Shown in pieces: positions 25,735-47,397 of a stretch of DNA of 64,000 nucleotides. This DNA comes from a virus. The stretch is from positions 45,205 to 109,204 of IMG/VR virus record IMGVR_UViG_3300027754_005987. One strand, given 5' to 3'. Numbering within the stretch: position 1 is the stretch's first letter; each line of letters starts with the position of its first letter. Under the pieces are notes generated by a model. That model was not told the DNA's origin. It ran no database searches and worked only from the letters and a program-made list of their open reading frames with translations. The position numbers and the translations under genes are program-made.

Positions 25735-25765
25735 AATTTTTATGTGTTTTTTATTTTTTATTTAA

Positions 25766-26911: not shown

Positions 26912-26935
26912 TTGTTTTGTTTTTTTTAGGTATTA

Positions 26936-27298: not shown

Positions 27299-27302
27299 AT
27301 AA

Positions 27303-27908: not shown

Positions 27909-27960
27909 TTTTAATTTATTATAAACCAATTTAATGATTTATAACAAATAAGTAAAGCAA

Positions 27961-28824: not shown

Positions 28825-28836
28825 AAATACTTTTAT

Positions 28837-28844
28837 TATAAATA
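28837..28844 (-). promoter_or_regulatory. Putative late promoter box TATTTATA
   Basis: Exact TATTTATA on the minus strand beginning 20 bases before the PhoH-like ATG. Confidence 0.5.
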
Positions 28845-28864
28845 TCGCATTTAATGCTTAAGGT

Positions 28865-31409: not shown

Positions 31410-31410
31410 A

Positions 31411-32322
31411 TTAAATTATATTTTTAATTCTATAATATTCATTAGCCTCATTTTTACATGTTTGATAATCAAATAAGTTACCTTCTCTATCCATATATGT
31501 AAAACACCTTGTATAAGCGTCACCTGTTGCCCAATACCCATCACTAACATTATGTCTGGCCCAATATTTTGGTGCGATAATTTTATTTACATTTATATTT
31601 AACCATGCTGCCCACCAACCAAATGTTGAATTTGATATAATTAACCATTTAGCTTGATTAACAACATAATAATCAAAACCAACATCAACATGTACCGCTT
31701 GAATAGGGAATGGCATAAAACTATTGGCGCATTGTACATCATCGGTAATTAATAAAAATCGCATATTAGGGTTTAAAGATAACATATGGTTAACAGCATC
31801 TCTCCAATATTCTCTTCGTAACAAAACATTTGGGATGTTACGATACTCTCCACCTCTAAAGTTAATAACACATAAATTATCATCTAAAGTAACACCCATT
31901 TCAGATAATAAATTATCATAAACTATTTTAGATTCTTCTTTTATCTCAAACCATTTTTTTATATCTTCTTTTCTATCGATAATATAGTCTTCTGACTGAT
32001 ATATACCACCTTTAGCTCCATTATGACCTAACATAATAGTATTATCACCAATACTATATAAAGACTCATTTAACATTGTTATATTAACTTCATCAACATG
32101 GCGAATTGTTTTCCACAGTTCATGAAATTCAGTTGTTATGTTTTTAACCTCTTTACCAAAATCAACATTCATAAACGTCATTTGGCTTTGTCCGTTAAAA
32201 TAATCGTGACTAGGATTTGGGTTAATACCCCATTCGTAACCTATTTTTTCTGCAATAGTTCTGCATACGGCATATTGCCACATATGGTTACCTAGATTTC
32301 CCGTTAAGTTAGTACTAATCAA
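31411..32322 (-). CDS. Family 11-type fucosyltransferase-like enzyme
   Basis: 303 residues. GT11 motifs: TGNLGNHMWQYAVCRTIAEK at 7-26 (GDP-binding Gly loop), INFRGGEYRNIP near 160 (variant of HVRRGDY) and ISNSTFGWWAAWLN near 230. GT11 enzymes transfer L-fucose in alpha-1,2 linkage. The R-R-G-D motif is altered to FRGGEY, so donor or acceptor use may differ. Its start overlaps the end of an endonuclease VII-like gene by four bases. A second GT11 gene with the canonical motif is at 40560. Confidence 0.82.
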   Translation of the reverse strand: MISTNLTGNLGNHMWQYAVCRTIAEKIGYEWGINPNPSHDYFNGQSQMTFMNVDFGKEVKNITTEFHELWKTIRHVDEVNITMLNESLYSIGDNTIMLGHNGAKGGIYQSEDYIIDRKEDIKKWFEIKEESKIVYDNLLSEMGVTLDDNLCVINFRGGEYRNIPNVLLRREYWRDAVNHMLSLNPNMRFLLITDDVQCANSFMPFPIQAVHVDVGFDYYVVNQAKWLIISNSTFGWWAAWLNINVNKIIAPKYWARHNVSDGYWATGDAYTRCFTYMDREGNLFDYQTCKNEANEYYRIKNII

Positions 32323-32756
32323 TTGTTTAAGTATTTAATTGCTTCTGATAGCAAATCTTTATTGTCTTTAAATCTTCCTAAACCATTGTTACAACTAAGG
32401 CATAATAAACCTCTTACTTTGCCAGTTTCATGATTATGGTCTACAGCTAAAGCTCTATCAAATTCAGTTTGATGCCTGTGGCAAATAGCACAAGATTCAT
32501 TTTGTTTTTCTAATAGTTTGTTATAATCTTCAAAAGTTATATCAAAATCACGTACTAAGTTTAAATGTTTAACTCTATCTTTATTAGCCTCATGCCAAGC
32601 TTTGCTTTTTGCGTTAATATGATTTTTATTATTTTTATAATAATTTTTTCTTTGTTCTGGATTAGCAGTTTTCCAAGCAACAATTCTAGCGTCTATTTTA
32701 TCTTTATTTGCTTTACGATATTCCTTATCATAAATAGATTTTTCTTCTTTTGTCAT
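32319..32756 (-). CDS. Endonuclease VII-like HNH nuclease
   Basis: 145 residues. Basic N-terminal region of Lys/Asn-rich helices, then the recombination endonuclease VII domain: CAICHRHQ near 91, RALAVDHNHETGKVRGLLC near 101-119 and SCNNGLGRFKDN near 120. The CxxC...CxxC zinc pair and DHNHxTGxxRGLLC are diagnostic. T4 gp49 resolves packaged DNA branches, but free-standing versions like this are usually homing genes. Its place inside a sugar-gene operon, with a 78-base gap upstream, suggests insertion as a mobile gene. Confidence 0.88.
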   Translation of the reverse strand: MTKEEKSIYDKEYRKANKDKIDARIVAWKTANPEQRKNYYKNNKNHINAKSKAWHEANKDRVKHLNLVRDFDITFEDYNKLLEKQNESCAICHRHQTEFDRALAVDHNHETGKVRGLLCLSCNNGLGRFKDNKDLLSEAIKYLNN

Positions 32757-32834
32757 TTTAATATTTTAAACTTCAATTTTGTTTTTTGTTATCATTTTAA
32801 TTGTATTTTATTATTGTTATTGCATATTAACTAT

Positions 32835-33641
32835 TTATAACGCTATATTTCGATAATTTTCTAATGTGTTAGTCGTATCTAAGAATTGTCTTTGAGGAGC
32901 AAAAGCATAATGACTAAATAAAGATTTACCAAAAATAATATTAGTTGTGTTTAATTCTTTAGGTTTATCAACAGATAACCAATTTTCTTCAGAAATACCT
33001 ACTTCACCGTTAAACGTTTTAAATGTTTTACCTAACCATGAAATACTATTAATAGAACACCTTTCAAAATATTTCAATTCCCAATTGTCAATAAAAAAAT
33101 CACTTATTTTATTTTCAGTCATTTTTTCAAAAAAGTAATTATGTAATGAGAAACAAAAATCTGGGTTTCTCCATCCATTTTCATCTAAACAATCATAATT
33201 AACTGATGGTAAGTTTTTTATAATACCTTTTCTTTGGTATATGTTAGTAACAATTGCATTATTTAATATATTACCATAAACTAAAAAATATTGTTCATTT
33301 GCTAACCTAAAGTCGAATAAATCCTTTATTGAGTTTTTATTAATATATACTATATCGTCATCTAATCTCAAATATACTGAATTTTCGTCAATACATTTTT
33401 TAAAAAAATTACAGATAGTTGCTGTGTGGCTTCCATTTGGGTCAATAGGTATTTCAGAATACTGTAGTTCTATATAGTCATAATCTTTAACTAGATTTTC
33501 AATATAATTAATGTCTTCATCATTAGTGGTGTTAACCCAAATTACCCATTTATCAAATTCATCTTTACATTTATATAAATTCTTATGTAATATTTCAAGG
33601 TATCTTTTCCTACCTGCTGGTGTTACTATTATTTTTTTCAT
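32835..33641 (-). CDS. Glycosyltransferase, GT-A type
   Basis: 268 residues. Start MKKIIVTPAGRKRYLEIL followed by FDKWVIWVNTTN, then the acidic metal motif VYLRLDDDIVYI at about 89-100. These are GT-A features, but the closest family is unclear. A conserved-looking C-terminal motif SLFSHYAFAPQRQFLDTTN follows. The 5' end overlaps the end of the galactopyranose mutase gene by 32 bases in another frame. Likely cytoplasmic; substrate unknown. Confidence 0.72.
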   Translation of the reverse strand: MKKIIVTPAGRKRYLEILHKNLYKCKDEFDKWVIWVNTTNDEDINYIENLVKDYDYIELQYSEIPIDPNGSHTATICNFFKKCIDENSVYLRLDDDIVYINKNSIKDLFDFRLANEQYFLVYGNILNNAIVTNIYQRKGIIKNLPSVNYDCLDENGWRNPDFCFSLHNYFFEKMTENKISDFFIDNWELKYFERCSINSISWLGKTFKTFNGEVGISEENWLSVDKPKELNTTNIIFGKSLFSHYAFAPQRQFLDTTNTLENYRNIAL

Positions 33642-34725
33642 TATGAATTGTTTTAGTTTTTTTTATTGCTGACGCTATTATTTGGTGCATGTCATAGTAT
33701 TTATATTCTGCTAATCTACCACCAAAGTAAATATTTTTTAATTGTTTAGTTTCTTCGTTGTAATTGGAATATCTTTGATTATTTATTTCATCATTAACTG
33801 GGTAATATGGTTCAGTAACATTTGCTTTATATTCTGTAGGATATTCAAAAGTTACCCAAGTAACGTCAGATTCTATTTTTTCAAAATGTTTATGTTCTAC
33901 AACTCTTGTAAATGGTGTTTCAATATCAGTATAATTCATCATTGCTGTACCTTGATAGTCATCACACATTATTTTTTTATGTTCAAAATTAGTTGTTTTA
34001 TATTCTAATTCACCATATTTGTAATTAAAAAATTTATCAATAGGTCCAGTGTAAATTAAATTATCATATTCTGGTAACTCATCTTTGAAATAGTTAGTAT
34101 TAAGTCTAACTTCAATATCAATTAATAACTTTTCAAATATTTGTGTGTAACCCCCAATAGGTATTCCTTGGTATTTATCATTAAAATAGTTATTATCATA
34201 TGTAAAACGAACAGGTAATCTTTTTATTATTTCTTTTGGTAAATATTTAGGTTCTTTTTTCCATTGTTTTGATGTGTAACCCTTAATTAATTTCTCGTAT
34301 ATGTCAGTACCAACTAATTTTATGGCTTGTTCCTCTAAATTTTTTGGTTCTTTAATGTGGTCACTTTGAACTTTAATTATTTTTTTTGCTTCCTCTGGGT
34401 GTGTAACATTCCATAATTTTGAAAATGTCCACATATTAAATGGTAATGAATAAATCTCATCTTTATAATTAGCAACAGGCCTTAACGTAAAATCATTAAA
34501 AGAGACAAATTGATTAGTCCATTTCCAAACCTCTTCATCAGAAGTATGAAAAATATGTGGACCATATTCGTGTATGTTAATACCATCTTTATTTGATGTG
34601 TAGCAATTACCACCAATATGTTTTCTACTTTCAATCACACATATTTTATAACCAAGTTTATTCAATTCATAAGCGCATATTGAACCAAATAACCCAGAAC
34701 CAACTATTAAAAAATCATATTTCAT
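33610..34725 (-). CDS. glf: UDP-galactopyranose mutase
   Basis: 371 residues, full length for the family. FAD-binding FLIVGSGLFGSICAYEL at 5-21, GGNCYTSNKDG near 39, EYGPHIFHTSDEEVW near 53-67, PVRFTYDNNYFNDKYQGIP near 166-185 and a C-terminal GRLAEYKYYDMHQIIASA. It converts UDP-galactopyranose to UDP-galactofuranose, so the phage can supply Galf for a glycan independently of the host. It lies among glycosyltransferases, one of which is probably a galactofuranosyltransferase. Confidence 0.95.
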   Translation of the reverse strand: MKYDFLIVGSGLFGSICAYELNKLGYKICVIESRKHIGGNCYTSNKDGINIHEYGPHIFHTSDEEVWKWTNQFVSFNDFTLRPVANYKDEIYSLPFNMWTFSKLWNVTHPEEAKKIIKVQSDHIKEPKNLEEQAIKLVGTDIYEKLIKGYTSKQWKKEPKYLPKEIIKRLPVRFTYDNNYFNDKYQGIPIGGYTQIFEKLLIDIEVRLNTNYFKDELPEYDNLIYTGPIDKFFNYKYGELEYKTTNFEHKKIMCDDYQGTAMMNYTDIETPFTRVVEHKHFEKIESDVTWVTFEYPTEYKANVTEPYYPVNDEINNQRYSNYNEETKQLKNIYFGGRLAEYKYYDMHQIIASAIKKTKTIHNEKNNSNTSR

Positions 34726-35665
34726 CTCTAAATATTATTTTTTTTATTTGTTCTAATTTTTTAAATTTATCTTTATACATACTTCCAGATTTAAAATGAA
34801 ATATAGGAGATTTTTCAATCGGTTCACCTAAAACTTGTATAAAATCACTATCTACTGGATTGTCAAAATCAAAAGGGTCTATATACAATTCTTTTATTTT
34901 GATTATTTTTTCTAATACATAATTTTCATAATTAGTGTTATTTTCTTCATATGGAAAACTTTTAACACCCATTTGAATACCTTCATTTATTTTTCTATTT
35001 TCATGGTTTAAGTTTGTAGTAAATCCAATACCCCCATTTAACCCTGAATATAAAACATCACCAATTAATTTATGGTGTGTCCACATTTCAAAATAACCAA
35101 CATCATTAATGTCAATATTTTGTATAAATTTATATGTTTGACCACCAACATCTGATATACCACGAATAAAATCCCAATCAAAATATTGTCTTAAATTTTT
35201 TTCATTTATATATTCATTATCGAATAATAAAATACCATCCCACATATAGAAATAACGAAAAGTACCATCATGTACTACATGAAATGGTGTATCTCTATAT
35301 TGTGGGTTAAAATATATTTTTTTATCAGACATTAATTTTTTATAATTTAATTTATTAATAAAAAACATGTCTGAATGTATTAACATTAAATAATCAGTAC
35401 TTTTACTTTGAATAGTTTCTCTATACCAAGCATATTGTTCAACAACATATTGAGGAAATGCAGTTCTTACACCATCATATTGTATAATTTCTATGTTATT
35501 ATTAACACAAATTGTTTTAATTTCATCAGCATGTGCATTTGAAGCGTTTATTACTATAAAATCAGTATTCCCATCATCCATGTGTTTTTTAAATGAATCT
35601 ATTTGTAATTGCAGATATTCTGGATTTTTATCTGGAAATGTATAAATTTTTAATCTTTTTTCCAT
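34715..35665 (-). CDS. Glycosyltransferase-like protein
   Basis: 316 residues. N-terminal LKIYTFPDKNPEYLQLQID, then TDFIVINASNAHADEI and the likely metal motif LMLIHSDMFFIN near 100-111 (HSD in the place of DxD). The middle contains MWDGILLFDN and GISDVGGQTYKF. This looks like a GT-A protein of a family I cannot name. Its start lies eight bases after the upstream stop, and its end overlaps glf by 11 bases. Confidence 0.6.
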   Translation of the reverse strand: MEKRLKIYTFPDKNPEYLQLQIDSFKKHMDDGNTDFIVINASNAHADEIKTICVNNNIEIIQYDGVRTAFPQYVVEQYAWYRETIQSKSTDYLMLIHSDMFFINKLNYKKLMSDKKIYFNPQYRDTPFHVVHDGTFRYFYMWDGILLFDNEYINEKNLRQYFDWDFIRGISDVGGQTYKFIQNIDINDVGYFEMWTHHKLIGDVLYSGLNGGIGFTTNLNHENRKINEGIQMGVKSFPYEENNTNYENYVLEKIIKIKELYIDPFDFDNPVDSDFIQVLGEPIEKSPIFHFKSGSMYKDKFKKLEQIKKIIFRDEI

Positions 35666-35673
35666 ATTTTTTT

Positions 35674-36360
35674 TTATTTTTTAGTTTTATAATTTGGGTT
35701 GAAGATGTAGCACTCTAATCGTTCAATTAACCATGGTGCTATTTCGTTTTCTTCTAATAAATTAACAATTTCACGATAAAAATCTACTGACCTTAGATGA
35801 ATATGTTCTTTGCTGGCACCAAAATGACCACCAGGCATAAATTCATAAATATTTGGTCTAGGACCATCAAATAATATATCCCAGTATGCATCAACATTTA
35901 TCTTTGGGTTATGGTCGTGTGGCATACCATTGCTATAACAAGCGATTATTTTACCGTTACCATGATGTTGTGATGGATACATTGTATGCATCATACCACC
36001 TTTTTCTGACGGTATTGTTATTGTGTTAAAATGATAACCGTAATAACCACCAATATTTAATGCTGCACGATTTTTAAAAGTTTCAACATCACTATTTACC
36101 ACGTAAATTAAATCTTCCCAATGGTCAAATGGATAATCTTGAACAAAAAATGTAAAATCAGATAGATTATTATAGTTTTTATAAATGTGATTAAAAAATG
36201 TATGAACACACCTACCAAAATTAGGTTCAATTAATATTTCATCTTCACCCAACGGTAAAATATTACCTTTACGATATATCGTTTTTTTTATATCTTTATT
36301 TAAATCAGATAACCAATTAATTGGTTTATCATAGGCTGCAATAACGATTTCTTTACACAT
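35674..36360 (-). CDS. DUF3431-like protein of the glycan island
   Basis: 228 residues. IVIAAYDKPINWLSDL at 5-20, EPNFGRCVHTFFNHIYKNY at 45-63 and FTFFVQDYPFDHWEDL near 69-84 match the DUF3431 pattern I remember (a GT-like family with N-G-R-E-x-H-T and VFLQG.PFDH motifs). These proteins accompany glycosyltransferases, but the activity is not established. An FGASKEHIHLRS motif follows. It begins 58 bases from the next gene upstream. Confidence 0.65.
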   Translation of the reverse strand: MCKEIVIAAYDKPINWLSDLNKDIKKTIYRKGNILPLGEDEILIEPNFGRCVHTFFNHIYKNYNNLSDFTFFVQDYPFDHWEDLIYVVNSDVETFKNRAALNIGGYYGYHFNTITIPSEKGGMMHTMYPSQHHGNGKIIACYSNGMPHDHNPKINVDAYWDILFDGPRPNIYEFMPGGHFGASKEHIHLRSVDFYREIVNLLEENEIAPWLIERLECYIFNPNYKTKK

Positions 36361-36418
36361 ATTAATTTTATATTTATTATAACTTATAATTTAATAAAAT
36401 AAGTTAAAAAGTAAACTA

Positions 36419-37180
36419 TTAACCATGTTTATAATAAAGATTTTTATCTTTATATATTAATCTAAATAAATTATTTTTAGCTAAATATTCAGATAATCTA
36501 GCCTCAAACGCATTTGTACCACCATATGGTGGCCCATTGTAAAAACCCATTTTAGGGCAATTGTAATCAATATTTTTTAATTTATCAACATGTCCAATAA
36601 AAATTTGGTCACTAAAAACAGGACTACACCAAAAATCAGTTAAAGCATAATTATTTGAGTAATTTGATGCGTTAATTTGTTCCCATTCGCCAACACATGT
36701 AACATTATTTGGTATCCCGTTTGGGACACCAAAAGTTTCCCAGTGTTTATCCCATGATATAGTTGTTACTGGGTAAAAATTATCATCATTTAAAATATTA
36801 ATAGATTTTTCAAAATAATCATCATTAATATTTATTTCATGACAACAATCACTACTAACATTAAAAATAAATGGTGTTTTAATATTTAAAATAGCAACAA
36901 AATATGGTATTGAATACCAATAACCAGTTGAATTTTTGTCCATATTTAATTTAAAAAAATCTAATGATTTCTTATCATGGTCATCAACAAAAATAATATC
37001 AAAATCATTGTTGATTTTTAACTGGTTAGTTAATTCATTAAATAAATCAAAAGATGTTAAATTATTTATGATTAACATCTTTTTTGTTACATATTTGTTT
37101 TTAAATTTAAAAAACCATGAATCTTGATTTAAAATTTCAGTGAAGTTACCTTCATATAAAATAGTGGTAAGTGTAATCAT
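36419..37180 (-). CDS. Probable glycosyltransferase, unknown family
   Basis: 253 residues. ITLTTILYEGNFTEIL at the N-terminus, KKMLIINNLTSFDLF near 33 and DIIFVDDHDKKSLDF near 60 look like GT-A strands; FIFNVSSDCCHEININD near 105 may be the metal site (SSDCC). C-terminal region has PPYGGTNAFEARLSEYL. Family not recognised. It lies six bases from the DUF5672-like gene upstream. Confidence 0.55.
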   Translation of the reverse strand: MITLTTILYEGNFTEILNQDSWFFKFKNKYVTKKMLIINNLTSFDLFNELTNQLKINNDFDIIFVDDHDKKSLDFFKLNMDKNSTGYWYSIPYFVAILNIKTPFIFNVSSDCCHEININDDYFEKSINILNDDNFYPVTTISWDKHWETFGVPNGIPNNVTCVGEWEQINASNYSNNYALTDFWCSPVFSDQIFIGHVDKLKNIDYNCPKMGFYNGPPYGGTNAFEARLSEYLAKNNLFRLIYKDKNLYYKHG

Positions 37181-37185
37181 ATTAT

Positions 37186-37839
37186 TTATATTAATGAATT
37201 ATATTTATTATGTTTACCATGAAAACCAAACGGTATGATATTATAATTTTCAGGTATTGTATTTTCAATAGAAAATTCAGCCGCAATGTTTATTGGTGCG
37301 TAAACACAACTATGTTCTTCAAATATATGTTTATTGTGAACAGCAAAAAACCCATCTTCATTATAATACCCAAAATACGGTTTCCATTCTAAGTTTAATT
37401 TTGTTGGTAATTCCAATAATTTTTTACTTCTTAAACTAAACCCACCATTACCAACTCTACATAAATTACCAAATGGGTCTCTATATGATATATTATCAGT
37501 TATTGTTGGGGTTGGGAATGGTGCTCCAATATAATCATATTTTAAAAATATATCATTCCATTTATCTGGATTCACAATAAAGCCATCATCTTGTATGATT
37601 AAAACAAAGTCAGTATTTATATATTTGTGTAATTCATAAACTATAAATCTACTATAATTTATATAATCTAATGATTCTATTTTAACAACATCAATATCAT
37701 CACAAATAACATCCACATCAGTAAATAATTTAATTTCATTAAATGAAATACCACGCATTGAGTATCTCAATGCTTTTATTGTTCTTTCAACATTTACAGA
37801 TGTTACTGATACTAATGTAACATTATCAAGCTTTACCAT
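37186..37839 (-). CDS. DUF5672-like glycosyltransferase
   Basis: 217 residues. ALRYSMRGISFNEIKLFTD near 24-42, NTDFVLIIQDDGFIVNPDKW near 75-94, YDYIGAPFP near 103 and VGNGGFSLRSKKLLEL near 127-142 match the DUF5672 family, a GT-A-like group often found in capsule loci. The QDDG motif is the probable metal site. Its start overlaps the end of the GT2 gene by 14 bases. Confidence 0.75.
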   Translation of the reverse strand: MVKLDNVTLVSVTSVNVERTIKALRYSMRGISFNEIKLFTDVDVICDDIDVVKIESLDYINYSRFIVYELHKYINTDFVLIIQDDGFIVNPDKWNDIFLKYDYIGAPFPTPTITDNISYRDPFGNLCRVGNGGFSLRSKKLLELPTKLNLEWKPYFGYYNEDGFFAVHNKHIFEEHSCVYAPINIAAEFSIENTIPENYNIIPFGFHGKHNKYNSLI

Positions 37840-38530
37840 ATTTACTCATTAAAATATTTGATTCATTATCTTTAACACTTTGAGGTGTTTTATCAGTCAA
37901 ACCATTACCATGTGTTCTATTTACAACTGTTATTTCATTAATTATTGTTGGTTTACCATGCTTTAAAAATAACCTGTAATAATATTCACAATCAACAAAC
38001 CAATTTAAAGTTTCATCAAAATAAATCAAATCTTCGTTTTTAATTGTTAAATTACTAGGATTACCTAAAGTATTATTTCCACTCCATATATTTTCACTTA
38101 ATTTTGGATGATACAATCTGTAAAAAGTAAAACCATCATTACTATGATAAAAAGTAGTTATTAACCATTTAATATTTGGGTTATCGTTAAGTATCTCATA
38201 TTGTGACAATAAAGAGTTTTCATCATATAAGAAATCATCTTGAAATAAAACTTTAATCCATTTACCTTTACAGTTTTTAATAGCATTGTTTAAATTTGGT
38301 GAAATAAAACCCCTACCTTTATCATTACTATAATATTTAATATTTAATTTATCAACCCATTCATTATATACATTTTTAATTGTATTATCTAAACTATGGT
38401 CCGATAAAATAACTTCAAAATCTTTAAAATTTTGTTGTTGTAATATATTAAAATTATGTTGTAAGAATTCAACACCCTTTCCTTCATAACCATAAGCTGG
38501 TATCGCAATCGAAAAAAACGGATTTGTCAT
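37826..38530 (-). CDS. Family 2-type glycosyltransferase
   Basis: 234 residues, typical GT2: FFSIAIPAYGYEGKGVEFL at 5-23, FKDFEVILSDHSLDN near 35-49, GRGFISPNLNNAIKNCKGKW near 73-92 and the metal motif VLFQDDFLYDENSL near 94-107. A C-terminal NWFVDCEYYYRLFLKHG matches the ED/DxxY acceptor-side helix. Cytoplasmic, inverting enzyme by family. It is one base from the SDR gene upstream. Confidence 0.85.
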   Translation of the reverse strand: MTNPFFSIAIPAYGYEGKGVEFLQHNFNILQQQNFKDFEVILSDHSLDNTIKNVYNEWVDKLNIKYYSNDKGRGFISPNLNNAIKNCKGKWIKVLFQDDFLYDENSLLSQYEILNDNPNIKWLITTFYHSNDGFTFYRLYHPKLSENIWSGNNTLGNPSNLTIKNEDLIYFDETLNWFVDCEYYYRLFLKHGKPTIINEITVVNRTHGNGLTDKTPQSVKDNESNILMSKYGKA

Positions 38531-38531
38531 A

Positions 38532-39215
38532 TTATATAACAGTTTTCATTTTGGATATGTTCATTGATTGGTTTTTTGGAACATGTTCAGGTGTAAATGT
38601 TTTATTAACTGATTTAGTTCTAGAAGCCATCTCATACATCGTTTTAGTTTCAGTACCAACATTATATAAACCATTTGCATTAGCATTAATTAATTTAATT
38701 ATTAAATCTGAAATGATATTTACATAATCAAAATTACCTATCTGGTCAATCCATGCGCCATCGTATGGGAATGGTGTTGGTTTATGTGTGCATCTAACGA
38801 TTAGATAATCATTAGCTTGTAACTGAACCAACCCATCCCCTAACAATTTTGTATAACCATACCAATTATTACAATGCACTGGCACATCTTCTTCTGAAGC
38901 ATTATTTACTGAACTAGTGTATAAATAATCAGTAGATATATGTACTAACTTAATCGATTTTTCATTACAATAATCGATTAATTTAGACACAAAAGCATAA
39001 TTTATATCCCAATGACTTTGTTTATCTTTAGAATAGGTATCAGTATTTGCAATACAATTAACAATAATATCAGGGGTGTGTTTAAATAAAAAGGTTTCTA
39101 TTTTATTTGTGTCTAACCCATCTTTTTTTCTGGACATATAATTCCAACCAGTCTGTTTTATTATTTCACCACCTAACAATCCATCACCTAATACCAGAAC
39201 ATTTAATTTGTCCAT
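38532..39215 (-). CDS. RmlD-like sugar-nucleotide reductase (SDR)
   Basis: 227 residues. Rossmann start VLVLGDGLLGGEII at 6-19, PDIIVNCIANTDTYSKDK near 49-66, LVHISTDYLYTSS near 92-104 and the catalytic YGYTK near 120 (Tyr-x3-Lys). RmlD enzymes reduce dTDP-4-keto sugars; others act as 4-reductases on CDP-4-keto-3,6-dideoxyhexose. Its start overlaps the E1-type dehydrase gene by 13 bases, so the two may act in sequence, dehydrase then reductase. It is shorter than RmlD (about 290 residues) at the C-terminal substrate domain. Confidence 0.75.
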   Translation of the reverse strand: MDKLNVLVLGDGLLGGEIIKQTGWNYMSRKKDGLDTNKIETFLFKHTPDIIVNCIANTDTYSKDKQSHWDINYAFVSKLIDYCNEKSIKLVHISTDYLYTSSVNNASEEDVPVHCNNWYGYTKLLGDGLVQLQANDYLIVRCTHKPTPFPYDGAWIDQIGNFDYVNIISDLIIKLINANANGLYNVGTETKTMYEMASRTKSVNKTFTPEHVPKNQSMNISKMKTVI

Positions 39216-40504
39216 TTTTCAGCAAAAATATTTTCAACGTAATTAAACACTTGTTCGTCATAATGTGGTGCAGCACCTAAGAAAAATACCTTATCTAACA
39301 CGGTGTTTGCTTTTGGATATTTATTAAAATCATCTAACTGTTTATATCCTGGATGTAGTAAAATAGAACCAGCGAAGTAGTTCCTAGTTTGTATATTATT
39401 TTCTTCTAAAAAAGAAACTAACTTATTTTTCAAAATTTTATCCTCACAAATAAACGGAGTACCAAACCAACAAGTATCAGATTTTCCATGGGTATGAACA
39501 CCACTTAACCCTTTAACGTGTTTTAATAAGATAGATTCAATAGTTGATTTGCTATGTTTTCTTTTTCTGTCAATTTCTTCAAATTTTTTCAACTGAACTA
39601 ATCCAATTGAACCCTGCAAATCCATAGGTTTAAGGTTATAACCCATATTCGTGAAAACATATTTATGGTCAATAATACCATCATATGAATCTAACCATTT
39701 ATCAAAACGATTTCCACAAGTACCACAAGATAACAAGTTAGCCGAACCAACACAAAAACAATCTCTACCCCACCAAGAAAAACTAGTAAATAATTTTTTA
39801 AGGTCAGCAATATTTGTACAACAAATACCACCCTCACCAGTTGATATGTGATGAGCAGGATAAAATGATGAAGACCAAGCAACGTAATAATCACTTAAAG
39901 GTTTCCCATCCCATTTAGAACCAAGACTGTCACAACTATCACCAACTAGTTTAATATCGTGTTTTTCACATAACGCTGTTAAAAAATCCATATCAGGCGC
40001 ATTACCTAATACAGGAGAAACAAATATAGCTTTTGTTTTAGATGTGATTTTTTCTTCTATTTTATGAATATCAAAATTAAGTGTGTCATATTCAATATCA
40101 ACAAATACTGGTACTAGATTATTCTGTACTAGGGTTGATATTGTAGTAGGGAAACCAACTGGTGATACAATAACTTCATCACCATCTTCCCAACCAAAAT
40201 ATTTTTTTAACGCAGCAATCAAAACTAAATTAGCAGAGCTACCAGAATTAACCATTTGTGCGTATTTAACGCCAAACATTTTAGCAAAAGCATTTTCAAA
40301 TTTATAAACATTTTCACCAGCAACAACCCATTTACCAGTAATAAATGTTGTTATTGCAGCCATAATTTCTTCTTCATCCCAATAAGGACCAGAATATAAT
40401 ACTTGTGATTTTCCTGGCACAAATGCTTGGTTATACAAATATTTAGGTTTATTTTCTTTAAGGTATTCAGTAAGATTACTTAATATTCCATCAATTTCTT
40501 TCAT
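39203..40504 (-). CDS. E1-type CDP-4-keto-6-deoxyhexose 3-dehydrase (RfbH/DdhC-like)
   Basis: 433 residues, full length for the family. It belongs to the DegT fold, with MVNSGSSANLVLIAALK near 84 and SSSFYPAHHISTGEGG at 211-226. The Lys that binds PLP in aminotransferases is His here (H218), as in E1/RfbH enzymes. Cysteines C191, C249, C251 and C260 (or C263) follow the known E1 [2Fe-2S] ligand spacing C-X57-C-X1-C-X7-C almost exactly (the last gap is 8 or 11). The reaction is PMP-dependent C3 deoxygenation on the way to 3,6-dideoxyhexoses such as abequose, paratose or tyvelose. CDP-glucose, its 4,6-dehydratase and the E3 reductase are not in the window and would be host-supplied. A host-type promoter lies just upstream. 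Confidence 0.88.
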   Translation of the reverse strand: MKEIDGILSNLTEYLKENKPKYLYNQAFVPGKSQVLYSGPYWDEEEIMAAITTFITGKWVVAGENVYKFENAFAKMFGVKYAQMVNSGSSANLVLIAALKKYFGWEDGDEVIVSPVGFPTTISTLVQNNLVPVFVDIEYDTLNFDIHKIEEKITSKTKAIFVSPVLGNAPDMDFLTALCEKHDIKLVGDSCDSLGSKWDGKPLSDYYVAWSSSFYPAHHISTGEGGICCTNIADLKKLFTSFSWWGRDCFCVGSANLLSCGTCGNRFDKWLDSYDGIIDHKYVFTNMGYNLKPMDLQGSIGLVQLKKFEEIDRKRKHSKSTIESILLKHVKGLSGVHTHGKSDTCWFGTPFICEDKILKNKLVSFLEENNIQTRNYFAGSILLHPGYKQLDDFNKYPKANTVLDKVFFLGAAPHYDEQVFNYVENIFAEKWTN

Positions 40505-40521
40505 GTGTAAATAATTTTAAA

Positions 40522-40552
40522 CAAATATACTATTTTTTAATTTAAAAAACAA
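40522..40552 (-). promoter_or_regulatory. Host-type promoter TTG-N20-TATATTTG
   Basis: On the minus strand TTG (40552-40550) and TATATTTG (40529-40522) are 20 bases apart, giving a leader of about a dozen bases to the ATG at 40504. It gives the dehydrase-to-29.8-kb part of the glycan island its own start. Confidence 0.8.
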
Positions 40553-40559
40553 TAGTTAA

Positions 40560-41324
40560 TTATATTTTTAACCAATTTTCAGGTATAACGTCTTGAGTGT
40601 CTTTATACCCAGCAGGTCCAAACCATTCTTCAGGTCCAATAACTTTTTTATTATCAGAAAAATTTAAATAAGCACCCCACCAACTAAAACTACTATTAGC
40701 TATTATATTATTATCACTTTTAACCATTAATATTAAATCATCAATTTCAGATTTAAAAGGTGAATACACAATATTATCCCCCTTAAAATTATCTTTAACC
40801 CAATTTATATCATCTGATATAAAGATAAAAATAGAATCACCAATAATATCCATAGCTTTTTTATAATATTCAATAGAACAAGGTTTATGGAAATTAGCGT
40901 TATTAATATAATCACCTCGCCTTACGTGAACTGAAGTAATTGGTAATGAATATTGTTTTAAATATTCATCAATAAATTCATTATTTAATTCATCAATAAA
41001 TAAATTTATCACTTCATTTTTATAGTCAATAAAATATTTTTCACTTTGAAACGACCCATTCAATAACATATCATTAACATAAGGTAGTTCATTATAAGAA
41101 AAACTAGGTTCATTATAAACACCAACATAATTATATTGGCTAACAATATTAATTTTTTTAAATATATTATCCCTATATTTGTTTGAAGTGTGTCCTTGTT
41201 GTGGTGTAAAGCACTGATTAAAATCAAACCCACTGATATCATTATTTCTTAACGCCAACGCATGTGCTGCCGCTATTTGAAACATTTGATTACCTAGACC
41301 ACCTTGTAATCTACAACTAACCAT
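40560..41324 (-). CDS. Family 11-type alpha-1,2-fucosyltransferase-like enzyme
   Basis: 254 residues with canonical GT11 motifs: QGGLGNQMFQIAAAHALAL at 7-25, SVHVRRGDYIN near 131-141 and IIANSSFSWWGAYLN near 205-219. HVRRGDY is the GDP-fucose motif. The second GT11 gene at 31411 is more diverged. Its start overlaps the upstream GT2 stop by one base. Substrate is probably a fucose-like GDP-sugar of host origin, since no GDP-fucose synthesis genes are seen here. Confidence 0.88.
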   Translation of the reverse strand: MVSCRLQGGLGNQMFQIAAAHALALRNNDISGFDFNQCFTPQQGHTSNKYRDNIFKKINIVSQYNYVGVYNEPSFSYNELPYVNDMLLNGSFQSEKYFIDYKNEVINLFIDELNNEFIDEYLKQYSLPITSVHVRRGDYINNANFHKPCSIEYYKKAMDIIGDSIFIFISDDINWVKDNFKGDNIVYSPFKSEIDDLILMVKSDNNIIANSSFSWWGAYLNFSDNKKVIGPEEWFGPAGYKDTQDVIPENWLKI

Positions 41325-42046
41325 TATCTAATTAATTTTTTATAAGGTGTTTTATTTCGTATTCTTACTGCATGGTTAGTAACCATAGACATATCTACTT
41401 TATGCTCATTTATTGGATTTTCAGCATTATAAACATAATTAACTTCAGTCATAAACCTATAATGTTCATCACCAGACATTTCTAACATAGGATACATAAA
41501 ACATAAATCACCACTCCATTGCCAGTAATCGCCATTCTCATCTTTTAAATCTTCTTCTTTTATATTTCGCCATAGGAAAGCCCTCCACGTTCTAATATGT
41601 GAAGCAGTAAAATTAACAGCTCTTAAATTATCAAAATTTGTTTGTTTTGACGAAAAACCTATTGCACCACCATGGTATCTGAAACTACCATTGGCAATCC
41701 AAACATTATCATCACTATATAAATCATTTATTCTTTTGAATACGTTTGAATCAGGTAAATAATCGTCACCATCAACTTCTATTAAAATTTCATTGTCTAG
41801 TATGTTTGAGTTATATCTTATAACTTTATCAAAATTACCAGCTTGGTATAGTTTTTTTTCGTTGTCATCTATCAAAATAAATCTATCGTCACCTTTAATC
41901 ATTTCTTTAACTAAAGAAACAGAATTATCTGTTGATAAATCATGTGTTATATAACAAGTAAAATCTTTAAATGTTTGACCCATTATTGAACCTAGGCATC
42001 TTTCAATATAATTTTCAGCATTATAAAATCCAGTTAAAATTACCAT
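41324..42046 (-). CDS. Family 2-type glycosyltransferase
   Basis: 240 residues. VILTGFYNAENYIERCLGS at 2-20, FKDFTCYITHDLSTDNSVS near 25-43 and the DxD motif EILIEVDGDDYLPD near 85-98 are standard GT2. The C-terminal part has WAFLWRNIKEEDL. It overlaps the next gene by one base and lies one base from the SDR gene upstream. Acceptor not predictable. Confidence 0.86.
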   Translation of the reverse strand: MVILTGFYNAENYIERCLGSIMGQTFKDFTCYITHDLSTDNSVSLVKEMIKGDDRFILIDDNEKKLYQAGNFDKVIRYNSNILDNEILIEVDGDDYLPDSNVFKRINDLYSDDNVWIANGSFRYHGGAIGFSSKQTNFDNLRAVNFTASHIRTWRAFLWRNIKEEDLKDENGDYWQWSGDLCFMYPMLEMSGDEHYRFMTEVNYVYNAENPINEHKVDMSMVTNHAVRIRNKTPYKKLIR

Positions 42047-42047
42047 A

Positions 42048-42731
42048 TTAATTATTTATATATTTTTTTATTATTTTATTTGTATACCCATTAGTTTTAA
42101 TATCTAAATTAGATATACTTTCATCAACTATTTCACTATTTTTAACGAGCCAATTATTATCGTTTTCATTAACAACAATCTTTATCGTTGATTCTTTATT
42201 TAAATGATTCGATATAATAGTAACCAAATCAAAAACACTTATTTTTTCAACATCAGATATGTTAATAACACTAGAATTAACTTTATCTTTGCAATAATTT
42301 ACTATATTGATTAAATCATCTATATCTAATAATGCTCGTTTAACGTTTTCAAATATAGTTATTTCATCATCTTTTAATATTGCGTTTTTTAAAAAATTAA
42401 CCAAATTGTTTTTATTACCATTTCTACCAATAATTTGTGGTACTCTAAAAATAATATAATTATTTGATTTATCTTTAATTATATTCTCAATTTCAAGTTT
42501 ATGGTTGTAATAATCATTATTTGATATGTCAGCTAATATACTGCTAAAATATATGAATTTTAATTCTTTGTTTTCAACTAATGTTTTTAAAACTAATTCT
42601 TTTTCTCTATTAAACTCATTTTGATTAGTTTGTTTTGAGTCTGAAACACCAGAAGCAAAGATAATAAAATCATCATAATTAATATCAGAATCTATAAATA
42701 CAGACGCTAATAAACCATTACCTATAATCAT
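42048..42731 (-). CDS. NAD-dependent epimerase/reductase-like SDR
   Basis: 227 residues. Short Rossmann loop MIIGNGLLASVF at 1-12, KFIYFSSILADISNN near 58-72 and the catalytic-type YYNHK near 74-78 (Tyr-x3-Lys), then IIFRVPQIIGRNGNKNNLV. This is a compact extended-SDR sugar-nucleotide enzyme; the substrate cannot be read. It is the second SDR of the island, besides the RmlD-like one at 38532. Confidence 0.75.
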   Translation of the reverse strand: MIIGNGLLASVFIDSDINYDDFIIFASGVSDSKQTNQNEFNREKELVLKTLVENKELKFIYFSSILADISNNDYYNHKLEIENIIKDKSNNYIIFRVPQIIGRNGNKNNLVNFLKNAILKDDEITIFENVKRALLDIDDLINIVNYCKDKVNSSVINISDVEKISVFDLVTIISNHLNKESTIKIVVNENDNNWLVKNSEIVDESISNLDIKTNGYTNKIIKKYINN

Positions 42732-43478
42732 TTATTTTAATACTTTTAATCTTTTACTAACATATAATTTATAATCAGTAATTATTTCATCAACACTAAA
42801 TAAATAATATAACCCAAAACCATTTTGTTTATTAAAACCACTTAATCTTTCAGCTCTAATTTTGTTTTTATAAATGTAATCATCTAACCCTAAAAATTTA
42901 TAATGTAACATTTTTAGAGAAGTATCAGTTGACAATCTAACATCACCAGTTGGGTTTGCATTATGACATCCAAAACCATAATTTATTTCATCAATTTTAT
43001 TACAATCAAACATCATCATTTTATCCAAAACTGGTGTTCTAACGCCTTCTTTAACTTTTTCAAGTATATTATCATCAGCTAATAAATTTAAATCCTCATC
43101 ACCAATCATATGATGACCTTCTGGCTTAAATATTGTTACACCATTATTAAACGATTCCTTTAAAAAAGTAATCATATCCTCATGATATAAAAACTCATCA
43201 GTATCGCCAAGTATAACATAATCAGCCTCACCAATACTAGTTTTCCATATGCTGTTTTTTATATTGATATGCACACCATCATGAAATTCACTATTAGAAC
43301 CAAATGTAATAACTTCAGTATTATCAAATGAATTAACTATTTCAACACTATTATCGGTTGATTTATTATCCAATATTGTTATCTTTTCACAAAAGGTTGA
43401 ATAGTACTTTATTAAATGAGGCAATATGTTTTCCTCATTATAGCATAAAAAATATGCATGTATTATAGGTTTTTTCAT
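42732..43478 (-). CDS. Glycosyltransferase, GT2/GT92-like
   Basis: 248 residues. IIHAYFLCYNEENILPHLIK at 5-24, ITILDNKSTDNSVEIV near 34-49 and the metal motif YVILGDTDEFLYHEDM near 87-102. The pattern CYNEE.ILPH...LDN.STD is typical of the Glyco_tranf_2_4/GT92-like group. A HNANPTGDVRLS stretch in the C-terminal half may bind the acceptor. Adjacent genes touch on both sides. Confidence 0.83.
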   Translation of the reverse strand: MKKPIIHAYFLCYNEENILPHLIKYYSTFCEKITILDNKSTDNSVEIVNSFDNTEVITFGSNSEFHDGVHINIKNSIWKTSIGEADYVILGDTDEFLYHEDMITFLKESFNNGVTIFKPEGHHMIGDEDLNLLADDNILEKVKEGVRTPVLDKMMMFDCNKIDEINYGFGCHNANPTGDVRLSTDTSLKMLHYKFLGLDDYIYKNKIRAERLSGFNKQNGFGLYYLFSVDEIITDYKLYVSKRLKVLK

Positions 43479-44266
43479 TATAAATTTAATAGTTTAATCC
43501 ACTCTTTAATTATTTCATCATTAGATAATTCTTTTACATCATGGTCAGTAGCTGAATTTCCGTAAAATTTTGTACCAGTAGTTTCACACTCATCTTTAAC
43601 CAAAGAAGCAACTTCACTTTTAGATGATAAGAACACAGCACCTACCATATCATAAACTTTTTGTTTATCACTTTCAAAACCATACTCAATAACATTATCA
43701 CTTATTAAAGGTTTAACAAATTTATTATAGTAATTTGGGTCACTAACATTACCAAATAATATAACTTTTTCATACCCTTCACTAAAAGCTCTTTGTATTG
43801 ATACGTGAGTCTGTTTATTTTCATCAAAAGAACCGATTACACCAGCTATTTTTTCATTCTCAGGTGTTTTATCCTTTTTAATTAAAACCTCTCTTAAATT
43901 AGGTATAATGGAGTATTTTCCATTATAACTAGAATGATAATCTCTTTGTTTTTCATTTAAGAAAACAACTTCATCCCAAAATTGTTTTATTTTACCAACT
44001 TCAAAAACATCTTTTTCATGGCATGATAAAATAACCTGTTTAGCGTTAGGTTTATTTGGTAATTGAATAAAATGACAAATTAAAGTATCATCATTATTTA
44101 TAGTTAATGTTTCATCTAACATTCCAGATTTACATTTATCTAAATGCCAAGTATGTGGCCCATAAAATGTTGTTTCAATACCAGCTTTATTTAAGGCATT
44201 GGTCAAATTTATAAAAGCAAATGTTGACCCCCCTTTATTACTCCAACCAGAAATTATCTTAATCAT
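43478..44266 (-). CDS. Glycosyltransferase, GT-B type, short
   Basis: 262 residues. SGWSNKGGSTFAFINLTNAL near 6-25 is the Gly-rich N-terminal loop of GT4-type enzymes, and KIAGVIGSFDENKQTHVSIQ near 140-159 with KVILFGNVSDPNYYN resembles the start of the donor-binding domain. The usual EX7E block is not clear and the protein is short for GT-B (about 350). A GT-B-like enzyme or a binding relative is the best guess. Overlaps both neighbours by one base. Confidence 0.7.
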   Translation of the reverse strand: MIKIISGWSNKGGSTFAFINLTNALNKAGIETTFYGPHTWHLDKCKSGMLDETLTINNDDTLICHFIQLPNKPNAKQVILSCHEKDVFEVGKIKQFWDEVVFLNEKQRDYHSSYNGKYSIIPNLREVLIKKDKTPENEKIAGVIGSFDENKQTHVSIQRAFSEGYEKVILFGNVSDPNYYNKFVKPLISDNVIEYGFESDKQKVYDMVGAVFLSSKSEVASLVKDECETTGTKFYGNSATDHDVKELSNDEIIKEWIKLLNL

Positions 44267-45450
44267 TATAGTGTTTCAATATATTGGTTAACAATGTTAT
44301 TAATATCTAATTTTTTTATCGCATCAATATCACCACTTAATTCAATAACTGACGATAATGGGTTTTCTTGAACACTAGTAAACAATCCATTTGTGAATTT
44401 GGTATTAACAATAGAAATACCATTGTATAGTTTATTCATATGTTCAATAATACCATCATCATATACATGGATGATATCAAAGTTATAATCTTTCACTTTA
44501 TAAAGCATGTTTGGTTGTGATGGAACATCACCATCTTTAGTTTTAAGAACCCATTTACCATCACCTAATGCAAATCCTGGAGGTTGCTGTATTGGCGCTA
44601 AATTAATACCGTTATTTTTAGCAATTGAACCTATCTTTCCATTTATGTTAGAACAAATAGTAACATCATGGTTTTCTTTTTTTAATTTTGATGCAATTTC
44701 TAACATTATATTACTTTTAGGTAAGGTATCATCAAAAGATAAACTAGTCATTAGTATTTTTAATTTTTCACCCTTTCTTAAGGTTTTTTTAATTTTTACT
44801 GGTAGGTTTTCTTTAAATGTTTCAGCGAAAATAATTCTATTTTTATCCCATGATTCATTTGTCATACCTATTGATTTATGGTTAACCCTAACAATTGTCG
44901 ACACACCTATTTTAACACCTTTTAAATAATTCTCAAAACAAAAAGTAACATCATAAAAATGAAAACCTTCTACTGATTCGTTAAAATTAGTTTTAAGTCT
45001 AGTTTTATCAACAGCAAAGAAAACACCATCAACAATCACAACTTCTTCTAATCCAAGACCTAAATCATCAGAATAAGCTGATAACCATGACTTACCTTCA
45101 TGTGTATGTTTTACTCTACCATACATTTTTCTTTTATCTTCCCACCATTGTCCGCTGCTAGCCATATATTTTGTACCAGCAACACCAATAACACCATATT
45201 CTGGATTTTTTTCAAACTGTTTTATCAATTTATTACCCCATTGTTTTGTTTCAATATTTAAATCATCATGACAAAACACAACGATGTTGTTTTTAGCCTG
45301 TTTTAACCCCTTATTATATGATTTTGTTAAGCTTTCACCATTATTGATAATCTCAATAACTTCAATATGTTTGTGAAGACCAGAAGACTTTATTAAGTGC
45401 TCTTTATGTTCTGGATTTGTTTTTCTAGTACAATATACAACTGTTATCAT
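44266..45450 (-). CDS. Fused glycosyltransferase: GT-A domain plus GT-B-like half
   Basis: 394 residues in two parts. Residues 1-215 are a GT-A domain: ITVVYCTRKTNPEHKEHLIK, INNGESLTKSYNKGLKQAKN, and the metal motif VVFCHDDLNIETKQW near 57-71. Residues about 226-394 begin KLKILMTSLSFDDTLPKSN and continue SNIMLEIASKLKKENHDVTIC, the N-terminal domain of a GT-B enzyme without a complete donor domain. The downstream gene also looks like part of a GT-B protein, so the two may form a split GT-B enzyme. First gene of the glycan island; no clear promoter was found upstream. Confidence 0.72.
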   Translation of the reverse strand: MITVVYCTRKTNPEHKEHLIKSSGLHKHIEVIEIINNGESLTKSYNKGLKQAKNNIVVFCHDDLNIETKQWGNKLIKQFEKNPEYGVIGVAGTKYMASSGQWWEDKRKMYGRVKHTHEGKSWLSAYSDDLGLGLEEVVIVDGVFFAVDKTRLKTNFNESVEGFHFYDVTFCFENYLKGVKIGVSTIVRVNHKSIGMTNESWDKNRIIFAETFKENLPVKIKKTLRKGEKLKILMTSLSFDDTLPKSNIMLEIASKLKKENHDVTICSNINGKIGSIAKNNGINLAPIQQPPGFALGDGKWVLKTKDGDVPSQPNMLYKVKDYNFDIIHVYDDGIIEHMNKLYNGISIVNTKFTNGLFTSVQENPLSSVIELSGDIDAIKKLDINNIVNQYIETL

Positions 45451-45508
45451 GTTTTTTTATTTTAAAGATACTTAAAAGTTTTTACATAGTAAAGCAATTA
45501 AAACAAAA

Positions 45509-45534
45509 AAAACCTATAATTACTTATAGGTTTT
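45509..45534 (-). terminator. Terminator after the dUTPase gene
   Basis: 11-bp perfect stem AAAACCTATAA / TTATAGGTTTT with loop TTAC. On the minus strand it is followed by a T run, 23 bases after the dUTPase stop. It separates the dUTPase unit from the glycan island. Confidence 0.82.
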
Positions 45535-45556
45535 AATTTATTTTAAAAAATAATAC

Positions 45557-46132
45557 TTATTGTATTCCAGTGCTACCAAAACCACCAGAACCACGTTCTG
45601 TATCGGTGTTTATGTTATTAACTCTATTTAAATTTATTAGATTTTTGCCAGTCACTGAAGAAATAACCGCTTGTGCTATTCTATCACCATTGTTTATGGT
45701 AAAATCTTCTTTACCATGGTTAATCAATAAAACACCAATTTCCCCAGTATAGTCACTGTCTATGGTTCCAATTCCATTAAGCACACAAACACCGTGTTTA
45801 TACGCTAAACCGCTTCTACTTCTAACTTGTATCTCAAAATTATCTGGAATATTAAAATACAGTCCAGTTTTTATTAACATATATTCACCAGATTTTATCA
45901 CCAAAGTTTCAGTTAAATTAGCTCTCAAATCAAAACCAGAAGAACCAGCTGTGGCATATTCTGGGTCTGGATTATTAGATTCATTAACAAAGTCAAAGTT
46001 AAATTTATATTGATTATCATCCAATGAATAATCTTTATTAAATTCTTCAATAAAATCTTCTTGTGAATAACCGCTATCTGGGTCAAGTATTAATAGAGCT
46101 TTAGCTCTCATTTCATCTAAATTTATTTTCAT
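45557..46132 (-). CDS. dut: dUTPase, trimeric type
   Basis: 191 residues. Hydrolyses dUTP to dUMP and pyrophosphate, keeping uracil out of phage DNA and feeding dTMP synthesis. All five motifs are present: AGSSGFDLRA (62-71), RSRSGLA (104-110), NGIGTIDSDYTGEI (119-132, catalytic Asp in IDSDYTG), GDRIAQA (149-155) and RGSGGFGSTG (180-189). About 45 extra residues precede the core, unusual for the family (usually about 150 residues). Its ATG overlaps the stop of the HD-like gene by one base; a terminator follows. Expressed from the host-type promoter at 46727. Confidence 0.96.
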   Translation of the reverse strand: MKINLDEMRAKALLILDPDSGYSQEDFIEEFNKDYSLDDNQYKFNFDFVNESNNPDPEYATAGSSGFDLRANLTETLVIKSGEYMLIKTGLYFNIPDNFEIQVRSRSGLAYKHGVCVLNGIGTIDSDYTGEIGVLLINHGKEDFTINNGDRIAQAVISSVTGKNLINLNRVNNINTDTERGSGGFGSTGIQ

Positions 46133-46698
46133 TATTTATTTTTTCCTTCTTGACTTTTTATTGCTAAAACACTACCCATTTTTAATAATTGACCAATCAT
46201 TGAATTATGGAATTCAGACATCTTATCATCCGTCTTATCAAAATTCAAAATAGCAACATATTCTTCTTCAGTTAAACTAATCCCATGAGTTGTAAGATAA
46301 TAAACACTTCTTTCACTAACACGCATAGATATTAAATCATTATTGAATTCATACATCTTACCTTGATTTTTACGATGCCATTCTGATTCACATGGTTTGT
46401 ATAGTTTAGCTTTACCTATTTGATGTAACAAACATACTTTAACCAATGAATTTTGGTCAACTTTTTCATCTTCAGGTAATGATTTATTAATCAATACTGC
46501 ATATTTAGCAACATTAAGCAAATGCTCAATAAGCCCACCTTCAAAAGCATTATGAAAATCAGCCATATTAGTAGCTGGTGCTTTGATGAAATCTTCACCT
46601 AAAAAGGTTGTTAGTTCATCATTCATGAAACCTAGTTTTGTTGCAGTATCAAAATACTTTTTAGTATTCGATACAATTCTTTCTTTGTCTAAACTCAT
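46132..46698 (-). CDS. HD-domain-like protein with altered HD pair
   Basis: 188 residues. DFHNAFEGGLIEHLLNVAKY at 47-66 supplies the H...GGLxxH pattern (H49, H59) of HD phosphohydrolases, but the signature HD pair is LLHQIGK (H92, Q93), with Gln in place of the metal-binding Asp. WHRKNQGKMYEFN and HGISLTEEEYVAIL follow. It may be a non-catalytic or differently metallated relative; co-transcription with dUTPase suggests nucleotide metabolism. Starts about 25 bases after the predicted start point of a host-type promoter. Confidence 0.72.
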   Translation of the reverse strand: MSLDKERIVSNTKKYFDTATKLGFMNDELTTFLGEDFIKAPATNMADFHNAFEGGLIEHLLNVAKYAVLINKSLPEDEKVDQNSLVKVCLLHQIGKAKLYKPCESEWHRKNQGKMYEFNNDLISMRVSERSVYYLTTHGISLTEEEYVAILNFDKTDDKMSEFHNSMIGQLLKMGSVLAIKSQEGKNK

Positions 46699-46726
46699 TG
46701 TAATTTATTTATAAGCGTTATTTTTA

Positions 46727-46757
46727 CAAATATACTACTTATTTTTCGAAGATTCAA
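46727..46757 (-). promoter_or_regulatory. Host-type promoter TTG-N20-TATATTTG
   Basis: On the minus strand TTG (46757-46755) and TATATTTG (46734-46727), spacer 20. The -33 element lies inside the last codons of the preceding gene. It drives the HD-like and dUTPase genes. Confidence 0.8.
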
Positions 46758-47397
46758 TGTTTTTCATAAAAGAATTAAATTTTTCTGCACCAACCATAGC
46801 ATCTAAGTTTAGAATACCTTTGATAGATACCTCTTTCACATAGGTTTCCAAGTCATCTTGTGTTGTCTCATAAAAAACAGAACTAGTCATTGGTCTTTCT
46901 TGTTTGTTTTTAGGTATGATGATACCTTGTTTAGCATCAAGCATTTTCTTTTGGTAGTTAAGTGCTTCAGTTGCGTTATCACGGTCTTTGTTTATAACAT
47001 ATGTTAACGTTGGGTTGTTTGGATTAAGATTTTCATTATGAATTTCAATAATCTCTGGCTCATATAACATTGGTGTTTTGTTATTGAAAAGCATTTCACG
47101 TCTGTTAGCCAACAAGTCTTTTGTTAAGTTTTCATGGTTTGTTTGTTCCAATGATGTTGTATACATAAGCTTTGTAACTTTTGCGTGATTGGCGAATCCT
47201 TGACTAAAAGCATCTTTTTCCCTTTTGATTTCATCCAATCTAGCTTTTTCTTCTTTACGAACTAAATTAGGTTTAGTAACCTTTCTATACCAAAGACTTG
47301 CTATAGGGTTTTTTACATACTTAAACCATACTGTACTAGCAAGTGATTTAATCTTGCTAGCAACTGATAGTTTATTTTTCTTTACTGTTTTTTTCAT
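46735..47397 (-). CDS. Hypothetical basic protein
   Basis: 220 residues. The N-terminal 55 residues are basic with aromatics (STVWFKYVKNPIASLWYRK), followed by a helical charged part and a Pro/Asn-rich middle (HNENLNPNNPTLTYVINKD). No membrane helix long enough to be certain and no known domain. Its start overlaps the glycosyltransferase stop by four bases (ATGA), so it belongs to that unit; its 3' end holds the promoter for the next one. Function unknown. Confidence 0.6.
   Translation of the reverse strand: MKKTVKKNKLSVASKIKSLASTVWFKYVKNPIASLWYRKVTKPNLVRKEEKARLDEIKREKDAFSQGFANHAKVTKLMYTTSLEQTNHENLTKDLLANRREMLFNNKTPMLYEPEIIEIHNENLNPNNPTLTYVINKDRDNATEALNYQKKMLDAKQGIIIPKNKQERPMTSSVFYETTQDDLETYVKEVSIKGILNLDAMVGAEKFNSFMKNIESSKNK

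Follow-up and report, generated by a model that had tools for sequence, protein, structure and literature searches.

The window analysed here is 64,000 nucleotides long and runs from base 45205 to base 109204 of a virus record that totals 109,204 bases and comes from a very large phage. A long block on its minus strand consists mostly of glycosyltransferases and nucleotide-sugar enzymes and adjoins a tail-fibre gene (Table 1). It includes a UDP-galactopyranose mutase, which suggests that the glycan contains galactofuranose, and a simple hydropathy scan of the block found no multi-transmembrane protein, so that no flippase or polymerase is evident. Within it lies an intact reading frame for a relative of E1, the iron-sulfur 3-dehydrase of 3,6-dideoxyhexose synthesis; the plus strand over the same span is full of stops. 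Two further features of the block are an apparent intein splitting the glycosyltransferase-like ends of an 804-aa protein (it starts SCMTPDTEILT, carries a LAGLIDADG domain and ends at a HIIYVRRNGKAMWIGNS-like junction), and a gene of the recombination endonuclease VII family that may be a mobile element of HNH type. Elsewhere in the window's own record (L147), several proteins are built of repeated NPSEEVQLAAVNQDG-like units of ~24 residues.

Table 1. Features of the window and of related loci (names with the prefix L have their own coordinates; L147 is the window's own record, outside the window).
Feature	Coordinates	Strand	Evidence
Block, mostly glycosyltransferases and nucleotide-sugar enzymes	24928..49808	minus	
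Recombination endonuclease VII family gene	32319..32756	minus	
UDP-galactopyranose mutase	33610..34725	minus	TIGR00031, 385.5 bits, over 303.75 cut-off
GT2-type glycosyltransferase, 234 aa	37826..38530	minus	PF00535, E 5e-10
Short RmlD-like SDR reductase, 227 aa	38532..39215	minus	PF04321, E 6e-21; TIGR01214, 68 bits, below 224 cut-off
Predicted E1-type PMP/[2Fe-2S] NDP-4-keto-6-deoxyhexose 3-dehydrase, 433 aa	39203..40504	minus	NF011936, PF01041, PDB 3bcx/3bb8, Foldseek
GT11 (alpha-1,2-fucosyltransferase-like), upstream of E1	40560..41324	minus	PF01531, E 1e-24; PHROG 2644
GT2-type glycosyltransferase, same cluster	41324..42046	minus	PF00535, E 5e-14
Second short SDR-like protein, 227 aa	42048..42731	minus	PF04321, E 0.0017, weak
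Glycosyltransferase-like protein with apparent intein, 804 aa	47394..49808	minus	
Tail-fibre gene	52391..55999		
ColD-type 3-dehydratase and GDP-fucose-synthase-like gene (LR756502.1)	L002:6513-8612		ColD, E 1e-58
2Fe-2S ferredoxin	L003:25201-25239		
2Fe-2S ferredoxin	L004:23881-24174		
Intein inside E1 reading frame	L058:6349-8799		
Proteins of repeated units	L147:1945-6959		
RmlC-like epimerase	L147:9458-10015		118 bits, below 155.75 cut-off

Profile searches placed the protein closest to RfbH (NF011936; 354 bits, E 1e-106, residues 12-429), with the next family at 141 bits and a match to PF01041. The RfbH equivalog cut-off is 423 bits, and the protein is hence not filed as an RfbH equivalog. 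Among solved structures, the best sequence matches were Yersinia pseudotuberculosis E1 (RfbH/AscC/DdhC; 3bcx, E 8e-73; 3bb8, 1.5e-71), followed by ColD (3e-44). Matches this strong, together with the 58 viral homologues described below, far exceed what chance would give. An AlphaFold model (pLDDT 81 overall, below 50 for Fe-S loop residues 245-292) has an aspartate-aminotransferase-type fold nearest to E1, the first three Foldseek matches all being E1 chains (TM 0.78-0.81; top 3bcx, 4e-30). The family is defined by a His in place of the active-site Lys, and four cluster cysteines are present in E1 and SpnQ and absent from ColD (PMC8987622). The His (H218, in YPAHHISTGEGG) and the cysteines C191, C249, C251, C260 and C263 lie where the earlier note had placed them, and alignment with the PDB entries puts H218 opposite H220 of Y. 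pseudotuberculosis E1, which 3bb8 carries mutated to Lys. An ordinary DegT sugar aminotransferase was rejected, given the His at the Lys column and a best aminotransferase model at just 141 bits, as was a ColD-type 3-dehydratase, given the Fe-S cysteines and the far better match to E1. Profile, alignment and fold ranking thus uphold the earlier assignment to an E1-type enzyme with a catalytic His and a four-Cys [2Fe-2S] signature. By every residue and fold criterion testable on the sequence and the predicted model, the protein is an E1-type dehydrase outside the RfbH equivalog. It shares with the Yersinia enzyme its fold, length, catalytic His, four Cys columns and ~32-35% identity, and with ColD (GDP-4-keto-6-deoxymannose 3-dehydratase, 2gms) the DegT fold, the His for Lys and C3 deoxygenation.

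The cluster-binding loop sets the phage protein apart from classical E1. C191, C249, C251 and C263 pair with C193, C251, C253 and C261 of Y. pseudotuberculosis E1, which we take to be its Fe-S ligands, if a four-residue insertion is allowed before the last Cys. Across an alignment of 30 relatives, H218 and these four cysteines are invariant. C260 is missing from many relatives and was discarded as a ligand; because C263 is invariant, it should be the fourth. The earlier suggestion of C260 or C263 with near-E1 spacing therefore holds for the ligand columns and for C263, but neither for C260 nor for the spacing, which is C-X57-C-X1-C-X11-C, with a loop four residues longer than the X7 of classical E1. 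C-X-C-X11-C recurs in the phage-type proteins with a readable loop, versus C-X-C-X7-C in classical ones. In L058-L060, near-identical copies from the same group, the E1 reading frame (816 aa) is interrupted by an intein that starts exactly at C249, the extein resuming with CYCVGSANLL. Inteins favour functional sites, and this position agrees with C249 being important.

Searches recovered 58 homologous viral loci, 52-85% identical to the window protein. The closest among named phage records is LR756502.1 (L002), an uncultured phage of 642,428 bases whose E1 is 86% identical; for those of their phage genomes that exceed 634 kb, Al-Shayeb et al. predict Bacteroidetes hosts (PMC7162821), and a host of this kind would be expected for this relative. 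In a quick tree, left unrooted because DegT outgroups were too distant, the viral loci, cyanophages, the 642-kb phage and five Bdellovibrionota genomes form one phage-type clade (SH-aLRT 99) apart from classical E1s. Surveyed Bdellovibrionota (291 genomes) included 5 with a phage-type E1 (531-715 bits) and 63 with a classical one (no more than 369 bits). Of the 396 Bacteroidota genomes surveyed, 28 carried classical E1 only and none a phage-type E1, so that no recent donor emerged from this set. The cyanophage homologues (S-H68, RN05-S, S-B05, S-B43) are 54-55% identical and lie in glycan clusters, with the X11 loop in S-H68 and RN05-S; these two differ in having their own RmlB and RmlC, an adjacent ferredoxin and another partner reductase. 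Comparison with eight close relatives gave dN/dS of 0.06-0.15, rough values since dS is high, indicating that the gene is under purifying selection. This ratio, the intact frame and the invariant catalytic residues make an inactive or decaying copy scarcely credible, and we found nothing in its favour.

The immediate neighbours suggest what may follow the dehydrase step. The RmlD-like gene overlaps E1 by 13 bases, as the earlier note had observed, and is a conserved partner, a particular short SDR directly adjoining E1 in 10/19 phage-type versus 0/19 classical groups (p 4e-4; loci collapsed at 80% identity). GDGLLG, HISTDY and YGYTK are kept throughout 14 relatives, with the GxGxxG and YxxxK patterns conserved, and by sequence the protein would act as a 4-keto reductase. 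Although SDR and GT2 are separate in the window, L012, L015 and L058, they are fused in most close relatives (L002, L010, L011, L013, L014, L016, L017, L026 and L053), and reduction and transfer are thus probably coupled. This fusion is the strongest hint that the product of the reductase may be what the GT2 transfers. The second short SDR likewise has homologues near E1 in L010-L013, L016, L026, L053 and L058.

The identity of the nucleotide was approached through gene context, in the same 19 phage-type and 19 classical groups. E1 of the RfbH/AscC/DdhC kind is a CDP-6-deoxy-L-threo-D-glycero-4-hexulose-3-dehydrase, and the earlier note had accordingly proposed CDP-4-keto-6-deoxyglucose as substrate, made by an rfbF/rfbG pathway of the host. 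The nearest characterised enzyme is indeed this CDP-specific E1, and the classical E1s in 28/396 Bacteroidota genomes imply CDP substrates in some members of this phylum, which is predicted to host the largest relatives. Yet RfbF/RfbG occurred within 10 kb of E1 in 0/19 phage-type versus 15/19 classical groups (p 5e-7), neither scored over cut-off in 20 phage records, and the phage-type enzymes form a deep separate clade. The CDP route was therefore set aside as unlikely for the phage-type enzymes, along with rfbF/rfbG as the host genes to seek; the genome of L006 does hold a true CDP-glucose 4,6-dehydratase, on another contig than its phage-type E1.

Several phage-type E1s instead sit with rmlA, rmlB or rmlC. 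One operon reads rmlA-E1-SDR-rmlB (L065; RmlA over cut-off, RmlB at 355 bits against 365), and in L006 and its relatives L127 and L130 rmlB-rmlA diverges from SDR-E1, both proteins scoring over cut-off in L006, as does RmlA in L040. S-H68 and RN05-S have a nucleotidyltransferase, RmlB (over cut-off), RmlC and an SDR upstream of E1, and L010/L011, 85% identical to the window protein, have RmlC (over cut-off) between E1 and the reductase-glycosyltransferase fusion. Since rml genes are common and the overall enrichment of RmlA/RmlB was not significant after dereplication (8/19 versus 3/19 groups, p 0.15), the case for dTDP uses only these operon examples and the absence of RfbF/RfbG. Together they point to a phage-rich E1 subfamily whose context leans to a dTDP-linked dideoxysugar pathway, with dTDP-4-keto-6-deoxyglucose as the likeliest substrate, probably host-made for the phage in the window. 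Neither RmlA nor RmlB was found near E1 in the window's own group, some members of which carry Gmd instead. Separately, an RmlC-like epimerase gene (Table 1) lies in the same record ~66 kb away, outside the window and isolated from other sugar genes.

The Gmd genes bear on another reading, in which the substrate would be GDP-4-keto-6-deoxymannose, the compound that ColD uses, made by a Gmd of the phage or of its host. They occur in L068 and L071 (TIGR01472, 391-399 bits against a cut-off of 415), with a 78% identical homologue in L014, and the GT11 genes of the clusters suggest use of GDP-fucose. These Gmd genes adjoin an Fcl-like gene, however, and are explained by GDP-fucose; they are not linked to E1 in cyanophage or bacterial members, and ColD itself lacks the Fe-S signature. 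LR756502, the sole relative with a ColD-type enzyme, has a separate gene for it beside an Fcl-like gene, and we regard a GDP-linked substrate as decidedly unlikely. That ColD-type gene (His, no Fe-S Cys) lies ~6.4 kb from E1, so that this phage has two distinct enzymes for C3 deoxygenation, and a viral scan returned no relatives of its product.

Genes supplying the dehydrase with substrate and electrons are missing from the window's own record: its 109 kb, an incomplete sequence, hold no NTP_transferase, no full-length RmlB-like protein and no Fer2 domain. Both must thus come from the host or, the record being incomplete, from unseen genes, in line with the earlier proposal that the phage taps a host pathway. 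The complete 642-kb relative likewise lacks NTP_transferase, RmlA, RmlC, RmlB over cut-off and Fer2 domains, its SDRs being UDP-glucose-epimerase-like and others only, and we accordingly assume host supply; a GalE-like gene was noted in the same genome. An E3-type Fer2/flavin reductase was found in neither, and ferredoxin in four cyanophage-type records only. The ferredoxin genes in L003 and L004, which follow the cyanophage sugar clusters at a distance of a few kb downstream, could provide an electron donor for E1 there, though cyanophages commonly carry ferredoxin.

A missing reductase gene is also what would be expected if the enzyme resembled SpnQ of the spinosyn pathway, acting on an NDP-4-keto-2,6-dideoxyhexose or, lacking a reductase, serving chiefly as an aminotransferase. 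SpnQ is a dTDP-linked 3-dehydrase with the same His and [2Fe-2S] signature that can transaminate without a reductase (PMC8987622). It differs in its 2,6-dideoxy substrate and in serving antibiotic synthesis, and none of the genes in the neighbourhoods inspected was evidently an NDP-hexose 2,3-dehydratase. SpnQ presumably also shares the shorter loop spacing of E1, which counts against such a role, and we consider it highly improbable.

Taken together, homology, residues, clade, neighbourhoods and fusion favour, with a probability of roughly 0.6, an E1-type C3-dehydrase of a phage-rich subfamily, acting most likely on dTDP-4-keto-6-deoxy-D-glucose, with C4 reduction by the RmlD-like protein and transfer by the GT2. 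The PMP cofactor would form a Schiff base with the NDP-4-keto-6-deoxyhexose, here the ordinary RmlB product taken from the host, and H218 would take a proton and expel the C3 hydroxyl. A [2Fe-2S] cluster on C191/C249/C251/C263 would then relay electrons, supplied by a reductase or ferredoxin of the host, to the glucoseen intermediate, yielding NDP-4-keto-3,6-dideoxyhexose. The overlapping reductase would reduce C4, and the next-gene GT2 could move the sugar onto a glycan that the large glycosyltransferase block builds, whether on the virion or, in altered form, on the host surface. The 3,6-dideoxyhexose chemistry put forward in the earlier note remains the best reading. More tentatively, and with the odds somewhat against it, a phage-dominated subfamily of E1 enzymes may act on dTDP-4-keto-6-deoxyglucose, so that phages make dTDP-3,6-dideoxyhexoses, and in huge phages one fused reductase-glycosyltransferase may reduce and transfer the sugar and cap a phage-made glycan.

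Parts of this picture are already on record. rfbH already appears in surveys of viral genes (PMC10653327, PMC11295528), the S-H68 homologue is annotated as CDP-4-dehydro-6-deoxy-D-glucose 3-dehydratase, and phage glycan clusters are known. LPS- or capsule-modifying clusters of jumbo phages, for which a change of host O-antigen against rivals has been proposed (Iyer et al. 2021, PMC7824862), similarly combine blocks of glycosyltransferases, SDRs and cupin isomerases; an E1-type enzyme and dideoxyhexoses go unmentioned in the section of that paper on such clusters. For other phages, work cited in PMC12619734 has documented glycosylated virions. Our literature search found no paper tying phages to the E1-type iron-sulfur dehydrase mechanism. 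What this analysis adds is the subfamily with its loop, its lack of CDP linkage and its linkage to rml genes, together with the reductase-glycosyltransferase fusion. The dTDP reading would correct the CDP-linked 3-dehydratase annotation carried by GenBank phage records, and the preference, if true, would lie outside the three of the characterised 3-dehydratases (CDP, GDP and dTDP-2,6-dideoxy), so that the subfamily yields a concrete prediction open to testing, namely that the E1 reaction has a further nucleotide preference. On bacterial O-antigens, 3,6-dideoxyhexoses act as strongly immunodominant caps; by making or placing them, phages could alter the receptors of their hosts, keep out rival phages or protect their virions.
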